A stretch of DNA of 44,192 nucleotides. Source: Phycisphaerales bacterium (lineage in GTDB: Bacteria; Planctomycetota; Phycisphaerae; Phycisphaerales; SM1A02). Below are positions 10,770 through 20,368 of the stretch, piece after piece (position 1 is the stretch's first letter; every line of letters begins with the position of its first letter). The stretch lies in contig DTSO01000011.1 of the NCBI GenBank assembly GCA_012965315.1, forward strand, positions 1 to 44,192, in the 5' to 3' direction. A program made the position numbers and the translations under genes. The notes beneath the pieces were generated by a model, which saw only the letters and a program-made list of their open reading frames with translations, did no database searches and had not been told where the DNA came from.

Positions 10770-10778
10770 GTTTGGTTT
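10761..10778. terminator. Small hairpin overlapping two convergent stop codons
   Basis: AAACCA (10761-10766) and TGGTTT (10773-10778) form a 6-bp stem around TAAGTT. It covers the stop codons of both converging genes (9147-10769 plus, 10777-12114 minus). It may act as a weak shared terminator; the stem is short. Confidence 0.35.
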
Positions 10779-12114
10779 ATGCACTGAACATGTTGAATTT
10801 AGTATACGATTTGCCAAGGATTGCTTTTGAATCGGCACCTAACCAATCTTCGAGAATAGCTGCGTATACTTCACGAAAGTCAGTATTGAATTTTAAATCA
10901 CCACTGTCAAGATTGGTAAGTGAAGGATGTTTTCCAAGCAAACCATTTTGAACACCGTCGCCAATCACAAACATTGGAGCCGCAGTACCGTGGTCAGTTC
11001 CACCGCTACCATTTTGTGCGACTCTTCTACCGAACTCACTGAAGACCATAGTCTTGACTTTTCCTGTATTTCCTTGTTTCTTCAAGTCTTTTTGAAATGC
11101 GTTTAGAGCGTCGCCGAGTTGTTTCATCAGATTGGAATGGCTGTTTAGTTGATTAGCATGTGTGTCAAAACCACCAAGACTCGCATAATAAACACGAGTT
11201 GGCAAATCAGCTCGAATCATTGACGCAATTAATTGTAATTGTTGTGCTAATTGTCCGTCAGGATAGTTAATCAGGGGACGTTTTGAAACTGCAGCCCGGA
11301 TTCGATCTGATGACACTTGAGCATCCAGAGATGTTCGAAGAAGGAAATCAAGTTGGCTGTCGTTGGCATTGGATTGTGAAGTTTCTTTACGATTGATGTC
11401 GCTGTACGGTTGCTCAAGATCGTCGTTGCCGATTCCGCCAGCCCATTTGAAAAGTTCTTCCGTTTCAAAATTTACGGCTTTTTGAGTTTTACCAAGGAGC
11501 GCAAGCGGGGCTTTGTTTCCGATTGCAATGGAGCCATCTGGATTTGGTTTTCCTGCACACGTGTTATCGAAATATTTACCAAGCCAACCATATCCTTGCC
11601 CACTATGATTACCGGTGTGCCAGATATCCGTTGAAGTAAAGTGAGAACGATTAGGATTTGGGTAACCAACTCCTTGGATAATTGCGGCTTGGCCATCATC
11701 AATCAGTTCGAGTAATCCGGTTAAGTTTGGATGTAAACCAAAACCATCTGCTCCTGGAATTGGAAGCGCTGTTCCAGATCCGTTGCTAGATTTTCCTGGA
11801 GCGCTAATAGCAAGTTGTGGTCTATTTTTATAGTAAGATCTGTCCCCATAAGGGATGACTGTATTCAATCCATCGTTGCCACCGCCAAGTTGTATGACAA
11901 CAAGTGTATGGTCTTCAGGAACGCCGGCTTGTGACGAGACGAGTGAACCAAGCGGAATCATGATTCCCTGCGCAGAGCGTTGCATAAACAGTGGAACGGT
12001 TGTCGCCATTGAGAGGAATGCCATGCCTTGTTGCATGAATAATCTACGGCTGTATGGATTTGTCGAACCAGTACTAGAAGTTGATTCAAATTCGTTATCA
12101 GAGTGATGTGACAT
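10777..12114 (-). CDS. DUF1501 family protein, Tat-type signal
   Basis: A 445-aa protein of the DUF1501 family, which is sulfatase-like and abundant in planctomycetes. The N-terminus has a twin-arginine-type signal (SRRLFMQQG followed by a hydrophobic stretch to MQRSAQG). Family hallmarks are VVIQLGGGNDGLNTVIPYGD, NRSHFTSTDIWHTG, YYASLGGFDTHANQ, TMVFSEFGRRVAQNGSGGTDHGTAAPMFVIG and DFREVYAAILEDWLG. AGGA stands about 9 nt before the ATG. It follows the DUF1800 gene by 11 nt on the same strand, the standard pairing of these families. Probably exported folded to the periplasm; substrate unknown. Confidence 0.9.
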   Translation of the reverse strand: MSHHSDNEFESTSSTGSTNPYSRRLFMQQGMAFLSMATTVPLFMQRSAQGIMIPLGSLVSSQAGVPEDHTLVVIQLGGGNDGLNTVIPYGDRSYYKNRPQLAISAPGKSSNGSGTALPIPGADGFGLHPNLTGLLELIDDGQAAIIQGVGYPNPNRSHFTSTDIWHTGNHSGQGYGWLGKYFDNTCAGKPNPDGSIAIGNKAPLALLGKTQKAVNFETEELFKWAGGIGNDDLEQPYSDINRKETSQSNANDSQLDFLLRTSLDAQVSSDRIRAAVSKRPLINYPDGQLAQQLQLIASMIRADLPTRVYYASLGGFDTHANQLNSHSNLMKQLGDALNAFQKDLKKQGNTGKVKTMVFSEFGRRVAQNGSGGTDHGTAAPMFVIGDGVQNGLLGKHPSLTNLDSGDLKFNTDFREVYAAILEDWLGADSKAILGKSYTKFNMFSA

Positions 12115-12125
12115 ATATATAATTC

Positions 12126-13622
12126 CTAACAGAGTTGGTATTCAGGCATCGCAGTAATTAGAGTGAGTAATCCAGTTACAGTTTCGTTATTGATTTTATT
12201 GTTTTGTGTTTTAATGTAATCTTCAAGAGTAGCTATTCGATCGTTCTCTGGTTTCTCTACATTTAAAATAGATGACAGTAAATATTTGATGGTTGTTTTT
12301 GGTGTTCTGGTTTTTCCCGCAACAAGTTGCATCGCATCAAAATGAGTACCATCGGCTTCCCATGCATTGCTATCTGGCCGTTGACCTGTAAGTAAATAGA
12401 GCAGAGTGTTTTGTCGCATAAACACGGTTGATGTATTAATCCAAGTTCTTCCGCCATCCCATCCTTTTACAGAAGGGGGAGCAAAGAGTCGTTGCCCCAT
12501 TATATCTGAAGCAACAGCAAGTGTTTGCGCCATTTTTTTCCTTTGCGGTGGATTTAATGATCGTGTAGCTTGGACTATTAATTGAACTGGACTTTTAATA
12601 ATTGCATTTCGGTTTGCTTCTTCGTAAAAATGTTGTGAAAGAAAAACCGCCTTGATGACTGGTTTTATATTCCAATCATTTTGTTTGAACTTTTTTGAAA
12701 GTGCACGGATAAATGCTTTTGAATCTGCGGTTTCGCCATGTGGCAAATCATTTACGAAGAACCGATATAATTTTTCAATGATAAAAGTGGATGCGCTTGG
12801 TCTTGTGAAAATTAAATCGATGAAATCGTCCCCGTCGAATCTTCCAGTCCTCCCGAATATCTTTTTAGTCCCAGTATCGTGAAGATTAGGACGTAATACA
12901 AAGTCGTCATCATTGACTGCGAAACCGGTTAGAGTTCGAGCGCCTTCTTTGATGTCATCTTCGCTATAACCATCACCTTCACCTAATGTGAATAATTCCA
13001 TTAACTCTCGCGCTAAATTTTCATTCGGTGCTTGTTTTTTATTTTTGTCATTGTTTAAATATTTAATCATCGCGGGGTCGTGGATGATTCCTCGGACTAA
13101 ATCTTCTTTAAAGTTACCCATTGCGTTTTTGCGAAAAAACATATTTTGCAAATACATGTGGTAACTATTTTCGATTGATCGATACCCTGTTGCAAAATGT
13201 CCATGCCAAAAAAGTGTTAGTTTTTCTTCAAGAGGTCTTGGTGTCGATACAAATCTTCGGAACCACCATTGTTCCATCTCTGCAATTTGTTTTCGATCTG
13301 CACGCTGTCTACTCTGACGTTCTTTTCTATATTGGTCAACCATTTTTTCATCGCCAGAATTGCGAGCAGCACGTATGGCAGATCGTTCGGTGGGAGTAGG
13401 TGGTTTAATGATATCTTTGTCGTAATCATCCACGTTCGGCGGGTCGGGGTCTGGTAGTTTTTTATAATTGACAATATAGTCAACGGCTTGTTCAACTCCG
13501 AGGTCAGCGAGTGCTTGGGCTTGTTGTGGTGTTCCACCAAAACCTGCTCTTTGAAGTAGATGTAGTGCGCATCTATGATCAAATTGCTTTGGATCAAGTG
13601 GTTGTAGTGAAGAAACAGTCAT
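12126..13622 (-). CDS. DUF1800 family protein
   Basis: A 498-aa member of the DUF1800 family. The start chosen is ATG at 13622, preceded by GGAG at a 7-nt spacing; a TTG at 13634 would add four residues without a better site. Family signatures are HLLQRAGFGGTPQQA, LEEKLTLFWHGHFATG, NFKEDLVRGIIHDPAMIKYL, NENLARELMELFTLGEG, LTGFAVNDDDF, GRTGRFDGDDFIDLIF and LFAPPSVKGWDGGRTWINT. There is no obvious signal peptide. It heads a two-gene unit with DUF1501, as in many planctomycetes, where the pair is thought to act together on exported substrates; the reaction is not known. Confidence 0.9.
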   Translation of the reverse strand: MTVSSLQPLDPKQFDHRCALHLLQRAGFGGTPQQAQALADLGVEQAVDYIVNYKKLPDPDPPNVDDYDKDIIKPPTPTERSAIRAARNSGDEKMVDQYRKERQSRQRADRKQIAEMEQWWFRRFVSTPRPLEEKLTLFWHGHFATGYRSIENSYHMYLQNMFFRKNAMGNFKEDLVRGIIHDPAMIKYLNNDKNKKQAPNENLARELMELFTLGEGDGYSEDDIKEGARTLTGFAVNDDDFVLRPNLHDTGTKKIFGRTGRFDGDDFIDLIFTRPSASTFIIEKLYRFFVNDLPHGETADSKAFIRALSKKFKQNDWNIKPVIKAVFLSQHFYEEANRNAIIKSPVQLIVQATRSLNPPQRKKMAQTLAVASDIMGQRLFAPPSVKGWDGGRTWINTSTVFMRQNTLLYLLTGQRPDSNAWEADGTHFDAMQLVAGKTRTPKTTIKYLLSSILNVEKPENDRIATLEDYIKTQNNKINNETVTGLLTLITAMPEYQLC

Positions 13623-13643
13623 AGTTCGCTCCAAGTATTTTGT

Positions 13644-13703: not shown

Positions 13704-15857
13704 CTATTGCGTTTTAATACGACGTTTACGCAATTTATGTTTCAAGCGTATCGCGTTTCCAATTACCGTAATATCACTGAAACCCATCGCTGCTGCAGCA
13801 ATTAATGGCCCGTTTTCGCCTAAAAGGCCAAAAGCAGCAAGTGGAATTGCAGCGACGTTATACATAAAGGCAAAAACCAGGTTCTGCTTGATTGTCGTTA
13901 GTGCATCCTTTGCAATGTGTATCGATTCTGCGGTTGCTTCAATCCTATTTGCTGGAATAATGATTGATGCTGATTCCATCGCTACATTCGTCCCAGAAGC
14001 AATCGCTACCCCAACATCCGATGCCGCAAGAGCAGCAGCATCATTGATGCCGTCGCCAACCATCATAGACGGACGTGGAAGAGAAGAAATGATATCTGTT
14101 TTGTCAGAAGGCGAAGCTTCAGCGTGGACATTTTCTGGCTTGATGCCGACTTCTTTCGCGACTGATAGTGCAGTTTCTTTTCGGTCACCCGAGAGCATGT
14201 GAACATCGATGCCGGATGCTTGCAATTCTGCAATTGTGCTTTTCGCTTCTTTACGAATTGCATCAGTGACCGTGATGCGTCCAATTATTTTTCCGTCAAG
14301 TTCAATTTTGCAAGTTGCTGCGTCATCCCGTATAACAGTAACGTTTTTGCCATCAACAATTCCACGCACGCCAATTCCAGCAGTCGCTTCAAAGTTTGAA
14401 ACACTTGGAACGGTGATGTTGCGATTACTTGCTTCCTTTACGATTGCAGTGGCAACTGGGTGTTCACTTGGCGTTTCAACTGAAGCGGCATATTTTAATA
14501 TGTCTTCTTCAGAAAATTGGTTTTCGCTTTCAATGGTTGCAACAACTGGTTTGCCTTGCGTAAGCGTTCCTGTTTTGTCAAAAATGATAGTTACTATTTT
14601 GCCTGCGAGTTCAAGGGAACCCGCGTCTTTAACAAGGATGCCTCGTAAACTAGATTCACCTGCTGCAACCATTACAGCCATCGGAGTCGCAAGACCAAGA
14701 GCGCATGGACATGAGATAACTAAAATAGTTACAGCTGAAACAAAACCAGTTTCTATATCGCCCGCAATGACCCAGGCAATAACTGTAATAGCCGCAATTA
14801 CCAGTACAATAGGTACGAAAATGGCTGAAACTTTGTCAGCGATTCTTTGAATTCCAGCTTTGCTTGACTGTGCAGATGTGACAAGTTGAGCAATTCTTGA
14901 AATGGTTGTGTGTCGACCGTCGACGGTTGTTTCTAGAATGAGTTGGCCTGTGGTATTCATTGAACCAGCGATTAATGTATCGCCGATATTTTTTGCTATT
15001 GGTAATGGTTCGCCTGTCACAATAGATTCATCAACTTCGCTCATGCCGTCAACGACTACTCCGTCAATTGGGATACGACTTCCAGGTCGAACGAGAAGCC
15101 GTATTCCTTCGCCGACTTCGCCAGTCGCCATTTTTGTTGTGCTTCCATCTTCCGCAATTATCTCTGCGGTGTCGGGTTGCATTTTTAAAAGTTCCCGAAT
15201 AGCAGAACCTGCTTTTGCAGTTGAGGTTGCTTCAAGCCAGTGGCCTATGCTAATAATTGCAAGAAGGGCTGCCGCTTCCATGAAATACATCGGATAACCC
15301 AAGTCGTGATCGAATATTTTTTCCGATATAAAAATGAAGAGTGAAAAGAAATACGCTGATGATGCTCCAATAGTAATGAGCGTATCCATGTTCGTTTTGA
15401 AACGCTTCGCCGCTCCGATTGCAGAACTGAAGAAACCGCCTCCAACGAGAATCATAGAAGTTGTAGAGGCAAGGAACATAACCCAGGGAATCCAAGAACC
15501 CTCAATACCTAAAGAGGCGGCACTCCAGTGCAATGCCTCAAATGGTGCCCATATACTCACGCCGAGGATTGCACGGCGTTTCCAATCGCTTGCATTTTTA
15601 TTTTGCCTTGTTTCAATCTCAGTGGCAAGTTTCGAAGGGTCAATTCCTTCGTCTATAACTTCTGAAGGGTATCCAGCGTCGGTAGCTATTTTTGCAAGAA
15701 GTTCTCCGTTTAGATTATTGCCAGAAATGGTTGCGCGCCCAGTTGCAACTGCAACGGAAGAGGAAACAACGCCATCGACTGAATTGAGCGCTTTTTCAAC
15801 TGCGGAACTACATGCAGCACAATTCAGTTCATCGACTTTCAATTCAATTGTATCCAT
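13704..15857 (-). CDS. copA: Copper-translocating P1B-type ATPase
   Basis: A 717-aa heavy-metal P-type ATPase that would pump Cu(I) from the cytoplasm. It has one N-terminal HMA metal-binding domain (NCAACSS, residues about 13-19), then transmembrane helices, the actuator loop TGEPLPI, the intramembrane metal site SCPCALGLATP (CPC, typical of copper), the phosphorylation site DKTGTLTQGKP, SEHPVATAI of the N-domain, and GDGINDAAALAASDVG. Length and order are complete. No Shine-Dalgarno precedes the ATG; instead a TATCAT box ends 6 nt upstream (15864-15869), suggesting a leaderless transcript. No CopZ chaperone or copper regulator is adjacent, so control by copper is not visible. Confidence 0.93.
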   Translation of the reverse strand: MDTIELKVDELNCAACSSAVEKALNSVDGVVSSSVAVATGRATISGNNLNGELLAKIATDAGYPSEVIDEGIDPSKLATEIETRQNKNASDWKRRAILGVSIWAPFEALHWSAASLGIEGSWIPWVMFLASTTSMILVGGGFFSSAIGAAKRFKTNMDTLITIGASSAYFFSLFIFISEKIFDHDLGYPMYFMEAAALLAIISIGHWLEATSTAKAGSAIRELLKMQPDTAEIIAEDGSTTKMATGEVGEGIRLLVRPGSRIPIDGVVVDGMSEVDESIVTGEPLPIAKNIGDTLIAGSMNTTGQLILETTVDGRHTTISRIAQLVTSAQSSKAGIQRIADKVSAIFVPIVLVIAAITVIAWVIAGDIETGFVSAVTILVISCPCALGLATPMAVMVAAGESSLRGILVKDAGSLELAGKIVTIIFDKTGTLTQGKPVVATIESENQFSEEDILKYAASVETPSEHPVATAIVKEASNRNITVPSVSNFEATAGIGVRGIVDGKNVTVIRDDAATCKIELDGKIIGRITVTDAIRKEAKSTIAELQASGIDVHMLSGDRKETALSVAKEVGIKPENVHAEASPSDKTDIISSLPRPSMMVGDGINDAAALAASDVGVAIASGTNVAMESASIIIPANRIEATAESIHIAKDALTTIKQNLVFAFMYNVAAIPLAAFGLLGENGPLIAAAAMGFSDITVIGNAIRLKHKLRKRRIKTQ

Positions 15858-15949: not shown

Positions 15950-15978
15950 TTGGAGATTTGTGGAAATGGCGGTATACT
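15950..15978 (+). promoter_or_regulatory. Sigma70-type promoter, predicted leaderless start
   Basis: TTGGAG (15950-15955), 17-bp spacer, TATACT (15973-15978). The expected start point falls at about 15985-15986, exactly the ATG of the following small gene. It probably drives that gene and possibly secA. Confidence 0.6.
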
Positions 15979-15985
15979 GTACGTA

Positions 15986-16255
15986 ATGCGAAGTGATCGT
16001 GGAACAACTTTAGCGACAATAGTAATCTTGATGTGCTGCATCGGAGGGTCAGTTAGTGCTGGCTCAATGGCAACTCATCGAGTGCTTATTCGAACAGTCG
16101 TGCAGTCGGGAAGCACTACCTATGTTGAAGTGGACACGTTTGCGGGTGATTTGGAAGTTCTTACAGTTTGGACTCCGCAGATCCTTGATGGAAATCTCCT
16201 GCCATTAGCCGATATTGATGAAATGACAAATTTGCCACCACCTTTACAAGGTTAA
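15986..16255 (+). CDS. Small secreted protein of unknown function
   Basis: An 89-aa protein. The start at ATG 15986 gives MRSDRGTT followed by a hydrophobic stretch (LATIVILMCCIGG) and SVSAGS, a clear signal peptide; the longer frame upstream runs through the promoter. The mature part is about 60 residues (HRVLIRTVVQSGSTTYVEVD, DLEVLTVWTPQIL) and ends in a proline-rich NLPPPLQG. I recognise no family. It lies 54 nt ahead of secA on the same strand and may be co-transcribed with it. A promoter with well-placed -35 and -10 abuts the ATG. Confidence 0.55.
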   Translation: MRSDRGTTLATIVILMCCIGGSVSAGSMATHRVLIRTVVQSGSTTYVEVDTFAGDLEVLTVWTPQILDGNLLPLADIDEMTNLPPPLQG

Positions 16256-16309
16256 TTGTCTTCTTTTTCGATTCATTTTTACAATTCAAACAAATATAAG
16301 AGGTGACGC

Positions 16310-19300
16310 ATGGGCGTTCCAGTCATTAGTACAGTAGGTCGTAAGTTATTCGGTAGTCGCAATGATCGTTTGGTCAAGCGCTATTTAAAATTAGTTGAAC
16401 AAGTCTCAAGCCGTGAAGCAGAGACAAGAGTGCTTACAGACGCAGAGTTGTACGCAAAAACTGCAGAGTTCCGCAAGCGAGTAGTGGACGGAGAAAGCGC
16501 TACGGATTTAATTCCTGAAGTGTTTGCAATTGCTCGTGAAGCGATGGACCGTGCTGTTGGTATTCGAAATATATTCAACCCGTTGCACGAATTCGATGCT
16601 TCGCAATTGGATGATACAACTCGTAAGTTATACGACGAAACAAAAGCAATCATTGACGCAACTGAAGACCGTAATCCGGACCGTGAGTTGCTTGGATGTG
16701 TTGAGCCAACACCGGCGTGGCAATTTGTCGACATTCCAAACGAACTGTATGAAGCTGTGCGTGCTTTGTATCCGAAATCAAAACCACCATTTCGTGCACG
16801 TCCATTTGATGTGCAATTAGTTGGTGCAGTAGTTTTGTATGAAGGCAGAATCGCAGAGATGAAGACAGGGGAAGGCAAAACTATTGTTGCGCCGCTCTCG
16901 TGTTACCTTGCTGCAATCGAAAATAAACAAGTACATGTTGTGACAGTGAACGATTATCTTGTTCAACGTGACCGCGATTGGACATTTCCATTTTTCAGAA
17001 TGCTTGGTATGACGGTTGGAGCGATACATCCCCAGCATATGCAACACCCACAATTAAAACAGATGGCTTACCACTGTGATGTTGTGTACGGAACAACAGC
17101 TGAATTTGGTTTCGATTACTTGCGTGACAACATGAAGATGAGCCCACAAGAGCAAGTGCAAAAACAACGGAACATCGCAATCGTTGACGAAGTCGACTCG
17201 ACACTTATTGATGAGGCGAGAACACCACTTATCATTTCTGGTTTAGCTCATGACGATCAACCGAGGTATGAACTGGCAGATAAACTTGCGAGGTACTTAC
17301 TTGATAAACAAAAACCTTGGGAAAAATTAGATCAAGAAGTGCAGTCGTGTTTAGTTATGATTAGTGGTCTTGAAGGCGATATTCGAAATGCGGTGGATAA
17401 AGACACGGTTCCTGCGATGAAAGAACGCATGGCTTTAGCAAAGGCAAAGTTACCTCAATTAGAAAATAACCGTAATCAGTTCACGCAATTTTACGAAATT
17501 GAGTTGGATAAGAAACGTGCGACTATTACACACGAAGGTATTGCTAAAGCTCAAAAAGAAGCGAATATTGGTTCGTTCTATGTTGGCGAAAACATGGATG
17601 TTCCTCACCTGCTCGAACAATCAATTCGGGCGCATACTGTTTACCTTCGCGACCGAGATTACATGATTGCTCCTGACGACAAAGGTGTTTTGGGTGTAAT
17701 CATTATTGATCAGAATACGGGCCGTAAAATGGTTGGCCGGCAATGGTCTGACGGTTTGCATCAAGCAATTGAGGCTAAGGAAGGCGTTGAAATTAAGCAA
17801 GAAACGCAAACGATGGCGACGATTACCATCCAAAACTTTTATAAGTTATATGACAAACTTGCAGGCATGACAGGTACCGCAGACACTGAAGCAACTGAGT
17901 TTTACGAAATTTACGGACTTGATGTTATTGTTATTCCTACAAATGTGCCAGTAATTCGAAATGACCACAACGACCTCGTATTCACAACGGCAAAAGATAA
18001 AACAAGCGCGGCAGTTGAAGAAATTTTTGCAATGTATAGAGTTGGGCGACCGACACTTGCAGGCACAACAAGCGTAGAAAAATCAAAAGAGCTTAGTGGA
18101 ATGTTAAAAAACAGATTCAACATTTCTCATGAAGTGTTAAACGCTGAACAACACGAGCGCGAATCTGAAATTGTTAAGTTCGCAGGGGAACTTGGTTCCG
18201 TTACAGTTGCTACAAACATGGCTGGTCGTGGTACTGATATTAAATTGGCTAAATTTACGCCATCGGATTTGATCGATCATTGGAAACGAACAGATCTATG
18301 CCCGCGTGATGTCACAGTGGATATGAATATAGATGACGTCACACTTAAAATTTACCGGCATATTGCAGCAAAAGAACTTGGTATTAGCAAATCAGATGTT
18401 CATTCAATGAGTGATGCGGATATTAGACGACAACTTCTTGAACATTGGTGGGCGACATGTTGCTGGTGGGTTGACGGCGATAAGGCATCTTCAATGAAAG
18501 ATGAAAAACTAATAGATGACATCGATAAAAGCGGTGCATGTATGTTGCATAAACTCCGTTTCTACGAAGGCGTTGAAGACATGGGCGGTTTGCATGTGAT
18601 AGCAACTGAGCGGCATGAAGCGAGACGAATTGATAATCAGTTGCGTGGTCGAAGTGGTCGCCAAGGTGACAAGGGCTCAACTAGATTCTTCTTGAGTTTG
18701 GAAGACGATTTGATGAAAATGTTCGCAGGCCCAAGAACTCTGCAGTTATTGAGTAAAATGGGCATGAAAGAAGGCGTGGCTATCGAGCACAGTATGCTTA
18801 CTAAAGCATTGACAAAAGCTCAACGTAAAGTTGAAGAGCGAAACTTTCTTGTTCGAAAAAATATCCTTGAGTACGACGAAGTCATGGATCACCAACGTCA
18901 TGTATTTTATGATTTGCGACAGCAGGTTTTGGAAGGCATTGAAATTCGAGAACTTATTTTCGAATACATCGAAAAAGCAGTAAATGAATCTGTATTTAGT
19001 TATTTAGACCCAACGTATTCTGCAAGTTGCATGACCGAATGGATTCGCGAAAAATTGAATATTGGTATCGAGCCAGATCGAATTGTTGGTAAAGACCGGG
19101 AAGACCTACACAAGTTAATTATCCGCGATTCTTTAGAAGAATCAATAGAAATTATTCGAGTCACAATTGGCGAATACCTTCCAGATACGATTGATCTTGG
19201 GGACGGAAAGGTTGCTCAACGTGACGAAACTACTTGGGATTATAAAGGTGCGGTCAATTGGGCAAGCGCAGTTTGGGATTGTGATATGACAATTGCAGAA

Positions 19301-20368
19301 GCAACCGACCTTGCTCGCGAAGAAATAGTTGTGCGTATTGAAGAAGCCGCAAAACAAAAAATTCTCGCAATGGATTTAGCGCCACTAGATCCTTATTTGG
19401 TTCCAGCACATGCACAAGAGGAATTAGCGACTTGGGCAAAATCGAAATTTGAGATTTCTTGTGAATCTAGTGATTTTGATGACATTGAATCAGAGGATGC
19501 TGTTGATCTTGTAATGGCCAGAGCGATGGAAGTCTATTCAAAACGAGAACGCGAGTATCCAATCGAATTCATGATTGACATGACAGGTGTTCGAATGCAA
19601 CAAGATCCTGCAAAAGCAATTGAAGGTTTTTGTCGTTGGGTGAAATTGAAATATGAACTCGATTGGACACCACAATCATTGCCATCGAATAATCCTGAAG
19701 ACTTGAAGAAGTTCCTTCTCGAAGAAGCGAACCGTTGGGACGAAGAACGATTTGAACGTCGTTCACAACGAATTGTTGATGAAAGCAACGGAGACATTGA
19801 CGGTTGGCTACAAGAGAATATGCAATTTGGTTTAACTGATTCTGAAAAAGAACAAGTTATTGAAGACCCAGTTGCAGTTACAACTTCAAAAATCAAACAA
19901 GTGCAACGAGCGGAATTAGCTCAACTTGAACGAAGTGTATTGCTTCAAATTTTTGATGGCGTATGGAAAGACCACCTCTACCAAATGGATCAAGCAAAAG
20001 AATCCATTGGCTTTAGGTCATTTAGTCAATTAGACCCACGAATTGAATACAAACGTGAAGGTGCTCGCCTGTTTGATGAAATGTTTGAACACATTCAAGA
20101 CAGAGTTAGTGATTTGGTATTTAAGGCAAGAATGCAAGTAAGCATGCCACCTGCACAACAACCGCCGAACCAACAACAACCCGCACAAGCGCAACAGAAA
20201 TCACAAGCACGACCAGCTCTTGCAAAACCAAAAGCAGCAGAGCAATCTATTCGAGCGGCGTCTGAAGCCGCAAAGTCAAGTGGTGGCGGGACGATGACGG
20301 TTGGAAGAAACGAACCTTGTCCATGTGGCAGTGGCAAAAAGTATAAGAAGTGCTGTGGAGCTAAATAG
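16310..20368 (+). CDS. secA: Preprotein translocase ATPase SecA (extended planctomycete form)
   Basis: A 1352-aa SecA, the motor of Sec protein export; usual length is 800-950 aa. Visible are FDVQLVGAVVLYEGRIAEMK with Walker A TGEGKT (about residues 185-190), the Walker B-type IVDEVDSTLIDEARTPLIIS, GMTGTADTE, TNMAGRGTDIKL, ATERHEARRIDNQLRGRSGR and SLEDDLMKMFAG. The C-terminus is a Pro/Gln-rich linker plus a zinc motif CPCGSGKKYKKCC that binds SecB or ribosomes. Extra length comes from insertions, most clearly residues about 85-155 before the Walker A region, 340-400 in the preprotein crosslinking domain, and 645-757 between AGRGTD and the GGLHVIATERH segment. GAGGTG precedes the ATG. Confidence 0.96.
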   Translation: MGVPVISTVGRKLFGSRNDRLVKRYLKLVEQVSSREAETRVLTDAELYAKTAEFRKRVVDGESATDLIPEVFAIAREAMDRAVGIRNIFNPLHEFDASQLDDTTRKLYDETKAIIDATEDRNPDRELLGCVEPTPAWQFVDIPNELYEAVRALYPKSKPPFRARPFDVQLVGAVVLYEGRIAEMKTGEGKTIVAPLSCYLAAIENKQVHVVTVNDYLVQRDRDWTFPFFRMLGMTVGAIHPQHMQHPQLKQMAYHCDVVYGTTAEFGFDYLRDNMKMSPQEQVQKQRNIAIVDEVDSTLIDEARTPLIISGLAHDDQPRYELADKLARYLLDKQKPWEKLDQEVQSCLVMISGLEGDIRNAVDKDTVPAMKERMALAKAKLPQLENNRNQFTQFYEIELDKKRATITHEGIAKAQKEANIGSFYVGENMDVPHLLEQSIRAHTVYLRDRDYMIAPDDKGVLGVIIIDQNTGRKMVGRQWSDGLHQAIEAKEGVEIKQETQTMATITIQNFYKLYDKLAGMTGTADTEATEFYEIYGLDVIVIPTNVPVIRNDHNDLVFTTAKDKTSAAVEEIFAMYRVGRPTLAGTTSVEKSKELSGMLKNRFNISHEVLNAEQHERESEIVKFAGELGSVTVATNMAGRGTDIKLAKFTPSDLIDHWKRTDLCPRDVTVDMNIDDVTLKIYRHIAAKELGISKSDVHSMSDADIRRQLLEHWWATCCWWVDGDKASSMKDEKLIDDIDKSGACMLHKLRFYEGVEDMGGLHVIATERHEARRIDNQLRGRSGRQGDKGSTRFFLSLEDDLMKMFAGPRTLQLLSKMGMKEGVAIEHSMLTKALTKAQRKVEERNFLVRKNILEYDEVMDHQRHVFYDLRQQVLEGIEIRELIFEYIEKAVNESVFSYLDPTYSASCMTEWIREKLNIGIEPDRIVGKDREDLHKLIIRDSLEESIEIIRVTIGEYLPDTIDLGDGKVAQRDETTWDYKGAVNWASAVWDCDMTIAEATDLAREEIVVRIEEAAKQKILAMDLAPLDPYLVPAHAQEELATWAKSKFEISCESSDFDDIESEDAVDLVMARAMEVYSKREREYPIEFMIDMTGVRMQQDPAKAIEGFCRWVKLKYELDWTPQSLPSNNPEDLKKFLLEEANRWDEERFERRSQRIVDESNGDIDGWLQENMQFGLTDSEKEQVIEDPVAVTTSKIKQVQRAELAQLERSVLLQIFDGVWKDHLYQMDQAKESIGFRSFSQLDPRIEYKREGARLFDEMFEHIQDRVSDLVFKARMQVSMPPAQQPPNQQQPAQAQQKSQARPALAKPKAAEQSIRAASEAAKSSGGGTMTVGRNEPCPCGSGKKYKKCCGAK

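Follow-up and report, generated by a model that had tools for sequence, protein, structure and literature searches.

A putative uA_LPPP-type translation-arrest peptide gene stands before secA in nearly all regions sampled from a planctomycete order

We analyzed a 44,192-nt stretch of Phycisphaerales DNA (hereafter the window), which is contig C11 of a draft genome of 1.91 Mb and 91.7% completeness, and focused on a small gene immediately in front of secA on the forward strand (Table 1). The open reading frame at 15986–16255 (+) encodes an 89-aa product, MRSDRGTTLATIVILMCCIGGSVSAGSMATHRV...ADIDEMTNLPPPLQG, with the C-terminal end NLPPPLQG, and the secA start at 16310 lies 54 nt past its stop codon, in agreement with the original prediction of an 89-aa exported protein with this ending 54 nt before secA. 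LPPP occupies residues 83–86 of the 89, and three codons separate it from the stop codon. No Pfam family matched the protein at E ≤ 0.1, the one NCBIfam match fell far below its cut-off (12.3 versus 140 bits) and a PDB search gave nothing below E 0.25. An Rfam search returned a single match (E 0.82), whose 16.7 bits fall far short of the gathering score, 100. The divergent neighbor at 13704–15857 (−) encodes a P-type ATPase that carries a heavy-metal-associated domain at its N-terminus (Pfam), and further upstream on the same opposite strand adjacent DUF1501 and DUF1800 genes occupy 10777–13634 (−).

Table 1. Positions of the small gene, secA and associated features in the window
Feature	Position	Strand	Remarks
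Promoter-like pair TTGGAG (15950–15955), 17 nt, TATACT (15973–15978)	15950..15978	+	Sequence reading; scan
Putative uA_LPPP-type arrest-peptide gene	15986..16255	+	89 codons plus TAA; homologues before secA in 14/14 genus copies
Signal sequence MRSDRGTTLATIVILMCCIGGSVSA, codons 1–25	15986..16060	+	Hydrophobic segment; cleavage point read by eye
Predicted hairpin centered on PPP codons and stop codon	16211..16274	+	Weak here, −9.4 kcal/mol
Predicted N-L-P-P-P arrest motif, codons 82–86	16229..16243	+	Invariant in genus; codons vary
Shine-Dalgarno-like GAGGTG of secA	16300..16305	+	GAGGTGACG or a close variant precedes secA in the genus copies inspected
secA, presumed regulated gene	16310..20368	+	1352 aa; Pfam SecA_DEAD E=3e-106

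The TATACT element of the promoter-like pair ends 7 nt before the ATG of the small gene, and from this position the transcript would begin at or beside the ATG in a leaderless-type start. The original prediction had proposed such a −35/−10 pair for a leaderless start, and a TATA[AC]T box is kept 6–8 nt before the ATG in 14/14 genus copies. A consensus scan read the site as TGGAGA-16-TATACT with 9/12 matching positions and found two promoter-like sites in the region versus 0.9 expected, so that the promoter site by itself is weak evidence. Outside the genus, a TAnnnT box lies 4–9 nt before a putative in-frame start in 13/51 other f1, 8/50 f2, 11/30 f6 and 4/12 f3–f5 members (f1–f6 being families of the same order), compared with 1–3 genomes per other frame in the control. 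In one genome (G009), loci L005 and L037 carry a repeat run of about GGGGTCAGACTCCTTTT directly before the promoter of the small gene.

To follow the gene through its relatives, we compared 14 secA copies from the 13 genomes of our genus sample, the additional copy arising because one genome carries two secA versions. This genome (G005, 6% contamination) has two different secA loci (L034 and L062), each with its own LPPP peptide, and is probably a mixed bin. A homologue of the small gene precedes secA in 14/14 copies, and the proteins of the 12 other genomes are 24–96% identical to the window protein, the farthest homologue retaining 24% identity over the whole protein. Mean pairwise identity in the genus is 0.48 for residues 1–25, 0.29 for residues 26–72 and 0.43 for residues 73–81, reaches 1.0 at NLPPP and is 0.21 for the three residues that follow. 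Codons of the motif differ synonymously (for example CCA CCA CCT, CCG CCG CCT and CCT CCT CCG). This pattern of five retained residues at the end of a drifting body fits an arrest peptide and not an enzyme or a structural protein.

We next extended the comparison to 163 secA upstream regions from six families of the order (f1–f6); outside this set remained four genomes that gave no usable SecA match (G034, G035, G060 and G092) and two with SecA at contig edges (G022 and G133). An ORF of at least 50 aa that ends at most 350 nt from secA and has PPP in its last 15 residues is present in 159/163 regions, with LPPP in 136. Of the four remaining regions, two (G161 and G041) reach only 16 and 114 nt upstream of secA, respectively, a third (G164) has a fitting ORF ending in SLPPPPLA at −401, past the 350-nt limit, and the fourth (G105) has a worn form with the end DLSPPRA. 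When only regions that extend 450 nt or more upstream of secA are counted, 157/159 have a PPP-ending ORF and 135 of these place leucine directly before PPP. As controls within these secA upstream regions, 4/171 other same-strand ORFs and 9/395 reverse-strand ORFs contain PPP among their final 15 residues, and none of either contains LPPP there. ORF choice was automatic, and in one region (G029) the longest PPP ORF was taken though an ORF ending in PMPPPMA is likelier. Conservation of the C-terminal PPP and of the secA linkage, which the original prediction had named as its check, thus extends to 14/14 genus copies and 157/159 order regions.

The order members share more than the proline run. 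Their consensus leading into PPP is L-[LTIA]-[NDA]-L-P-P-P, with one to four residues after PPP in 145/157. Every proline position uses all four proline codons (at the first, CCG 69, CCC 38, CCT 36 and CCA 14 times), indicating that selection acts on the peptide. A hydrophobic segment by Kyte-Doolittle analysis is present in 157/157 members versus 33/314 other-frame translations and lies 45–134 residues (median 80) from the second proline, a spacer long enough for the segment to have left the ribosome at the stall. The gap between the PPP-ending ORF and secA is 53–318 nt, with a median of 137 nt.

Beyond the order, two families of the same class encode related endings. In family f11, 13/13 regions have a PPP end (12 as LPPP, mostly ..FRLPPP), and in family f9 a PPP end is present in 11/16 regions, with LAPP at the same place in four of the five regions that have no PPP. 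When the f9 comparison was widened to 28 genomes, 27 of which had SecA, 21 of the 26 loci inspected carried a signal-bearing ORF with APP or PPP among its final 15 residues. One of the 21 is doubtful (G207, with PPP far from the end), and five are LAPP forms that have no PPP (L288, L289, L290, L298 and L299); of the remaining five loci with neither APP nor PPP, two have under 200 nt of upstream sequence. A single f9 genus holds both LLPPPPSA (G374) and LLAPPPSA (G375). PPP-ending ORFs were found in 0/4 regions of families f13, f14 and f20 and in 0/5 genomes from other parts of the phylum.

Comparison with known arrest peptides connects the window gene to the uA_LPPP family, described as secA-upstream ORFs whose final 15 residues contain LPPP and hosted by Phycisphaerales, UBA1161 and WQYP01 in the GTDB taxonomy (Fujiwara et al. 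2024, PMC10987492). The published set comprises 52 sequences, 45 with LPPP and 50 with a signal sequence, and one homologue was tested, giving fAP values of 1 (a full stall) on B. subtilis and 0.51 on E. coli ribosomes and an in vivo index of 22.4 in B. subtilis and 1.59 (weak) in E. coli (PMC10987492). Its toeprint maps to the third LPPP codon on ribosomes that are foreign to planctomycetes, and leucine and proline substitutions weakened the arrest with B. subtilis ribosomes (PMC10987492). The window gene shares with this family a secA-upstream ORF with no annotated function, an N-terminal signal, a terminal LPPP and a spacer of more than 30 residues, the spacer in the window protein and in all 157 order members being at least 45 residues against the published criterion of >30. 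By each sequence feature compared, the window gene is a member of the published uA_LPPP family. The genus adds to the published description a leaderless-type start and a co-varying hairpin, and the word 'leaderless' has 0 occurrences in the main text of PMC10987492.

The gene resembles E. coli SecM as an exported arrest peptide before secA with a stop a few codons past the arrest site and a gap of about 54 nt, but the SecM motif FxxxxWIxxxxGIRAGP (as given in PMC10987492) is absent from the 89 residues and neither Pfam nor NCBIfam gave a SecM match, bearing out the original statement that no SecM similarity is present. The broader idea in that prediction, a SecM-like arrest peptide proposed from position and a proline run and offered purely by analogy, gains support from the conservation and from the match to the uA_LPPP family. 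RAPP-like peptides with an RQH motif, including ApdA and ApdP, are similar in their C-terminal Pro-Pro motif, stall at the third residue and placement before sec genes; their motif [RQH]-[AGD]-[PGS]-[PG] differs from that of the window protein, where leucine replaces Arg/Gln/His and proline replaces Ala/Gly/Asp, and the LAPP endings of f9 are a form between the uA_LPPP and RAPP-like arrest peptides. CruR (DUF2946) of Bordetella, as described in PMC9426467, is likewise an upstream ORF with a C-terminal stall motif that controls downstream genes, and differs in sensing copper and acting through Rho-dependent termination. In the literature available to us we found further work on LPPP arrest peptides in PMC10987492 and Starosta et al. 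2014 (PMC4176338) only; the word Planctomycetes is absent from the available text of the Sakiyama et al. 2021 survey (PMC7897499), as is PPP as a word from that of a 2025 EMBO J paper (PMC12992588).

We consider it likely that the product of the small gene belongs to the uA_LPPP family and monitors Sec by translation arrest, with the stall raising secA when SecA is limiting. According to this model, the signal sequence of the nascent peptide would engage the Sec machinery during synthesis and the ribosome reaching L-P-P-P would stall once its P site held the second proline codon, which by analogy with the published toeprint (PMC10987492) would be codon 85 (16238–16240). Brisk export would pull on the nascent chain and release the stall, whereas limiting SecA would prolong the stall and thereby increase secA expression downstream. 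Stalling by the window peptide, its release by export and the increase of secA are inferred; stalling and its site are published for one other family member, and secA induction or export-dependent release for uA_LPPP was not found in the available text of PMC10987492.

Elongation factor EF-P is encoded in the genome of the window and in 120/120 class genomes, and the LPPP motif would therefore have to work despite EF-P. In an E. coli test LPPP was a weak staller and RPPP the strongest (Starosta et al. 2014, PMC4176338). The presence of EF-P, together with retention of leucine in 135/157 members though LPPP is weak in E. coli, argues that LPPP acts here as a specific arrest motif, as opposed to simple pausing at polyproline.

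How the stall would reach secA was addressed by folding. The original prediction had looked to an RNA structure sequestering the secA start, and we compared the opening energy of this start in energy-minimum folds between native arrest regions and shuffled versions. Across 157 regions, native arrest regions hindered opening of the secA start no more than shuffled ones did (mean z 0.03, s.e. 0.09), and the anticipated structure thus received no overall support from folding. Group values differ, with f6 (0.45, n=30) and f4 (0.81, n=6) leaning towards sequestration and the own genus (−0.79) against it, and in the window's genome the opening energy is 8.7 versus 10.1 for shuffles. The PPP region contains CACCTTT, which is able to base-pair with AGAGGTG at the secA Shine-Dalgarno and does so in one minimum-free-energy fold of that genome. 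Since opening energy over the 157 regions is not above that of shuffles, we abandoned the idea that the PPP codons sequester the secA start as a general mechanism, and this computed test does not support SecM-like exposure of the secA start by hairpin melting overall. Separately, in several genus folds the secA start codon can occupy the loop of a short local hairpin, GACGC-AUGG-GCGUU (within 16300–16322 in the window, and at the equivalent place in the genus), beyond the reach of a PPP-stalled ribosome.

A different structure lies over the arrest codons themselves. The hairpin centered on the PPP and stop codons, which carries the PPP codons at its tip, has a mean z of −1.59 across the 14 genus copies and −0.64 (s.e. 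0.10) in other order members, and in the genus it co-varies, hinting at another form of coupling such as attenuation. The stall could then act on transcription, with the stalled ribosome covering the hairpin or a Rho-loading site near the stop codon so that RNA polymerase runs into secA, an account that departs from the Sec-monitoring model only in the coupling step and that we regard as possible though on balance unlikely. Terminator-like hairpins (≤ −8 kcal/mol with a U-rich tail) occur in 6/14 genus copies versus 0.5 expected from shuffles, with a mean genus energy of −7.9 versus −2.4 in shuffles, and T content is 54% in the first 30 nt past the stop codon versus 32% in the rest of the gap. 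When 3′ arms were swapped among six genus subgroups, the native pairing was the most stable of 720 permutations and 11/14 copies paired better than their own swapped mean, but 3/14 paired worse and one of the six subgroups went in the wrong direction. There is precedent in CruR, where a RAPP stall prevents Rho-dependent termination (PMC9426467). Against transcriptional coupling, the hairpin in the window itself is weak and not significant (z +0.4, matched in strength by 15% of shuffles), no consensus structure emerged when the 14 genus leaders were aligned with MAFFT and folded with RNAalifold, and outside the genus both the arm-swap effect (f1 −0.37, s.e. 0.18; f2 −0.12; f6 −0.10) and the excess of terminator-like sites (45/143 versus 32 expected) are weak.

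The neighborhood of secA in other class members brings EF-P into the same picture. Among the best-scoring 30 EF-P loci, a non-random set with none from the peptide-carrying families f1–f6, f9 and f11, efp stands directly before secA on the same strand in 20, at 18–492 nt measured to the first possible secA start; of the other 10, one has secA at 1123 nt and nine have none in the flank (one flank being 153 nt). The efp–secA pairs (L304–L307, L313–L322, L326 and L329–L333) fall in families f10, f12, f13, f18, f19, f20, f22 and f23; the genome of the window has the two genes on separate contigs. It may be chance that the peptide holds the position taken by efp in relatives, but EF-P is the factor by which PPP stalls are relieved. 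One could imagine that a leaderless LPPP stall controls secA by antitermination at the arrest-codon hairpin and not by exposing the secA start, and that the peptide replaced efp, wiring secA to both EF-P and secretion; we hold this combined scenario to be improbable.

An alternative in which the stall reads EF-P or proline-tRNA supply, secA is tuned to polyproline translation and the signal only exports the product strikes us as highly improbable. PPP is the classical EF-P-dependent motif (PMC4176338), efp precedes secA in the pairs described above, and the uA_LPPP authors raise lack of EF-P as a cause of the in vitro stall with E. coli ribosomes (PMC10987492). However, an EF-P sensor would not need the hydrophobic segment that lies far enough from the motif in 157/157 members, the leucine kept in 135/157 forms a motif that stalls weakly in E. 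coli where RPPP is strongest (PMC4176338), and the 30 EF-P loci are the top-scoring ones, with none from the peptide-carrying families. Also highly improbable is that the gene encodes an ordinary secreted protein that binds a partner through its C-terminus and stands before secA merely as an operon member, since its signal sequence is as expected for such a protein but the mature body is hardly conserved (29% in the genus; 24% in the farthest homologue over the whole protein) against five invariant residues beside the stop codon, the secA link holds across the order, Pfam, NCBIfam and PDB gave no match at the thresholds stated above, and one uA_LPPP family member stalls ribosomes (PMC10987492).

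The Sec-monitoring arrest peptide thus remains the preferred reading. The arrest circuit itself is already published (PMC10987492); what goes beyond the literature we found, as far as its available text extends, is that the gene is nearly fixed in the order, that a leaderless-type start is predicted for it, that LAPP forms occur, that the sequestration test was negative and that efp is paired with secA in relatives. Nascent-peptide feedback on secA looks near-fixed across the whole order and not patchy, with a motif unlike that of SecM, and the natural alignment of 157 members shows which residues matter, namely L-x-[ND]-L-P-P-P near the end of the ORF. These results raise the question of how stalling at PPP can persist when all the cells carry EF-P and how it reaches secA with no evident start hairpin, and the efp–secA pair in sister lineages offers a concrete handle on the relationship between PPP stalls and EF-P.
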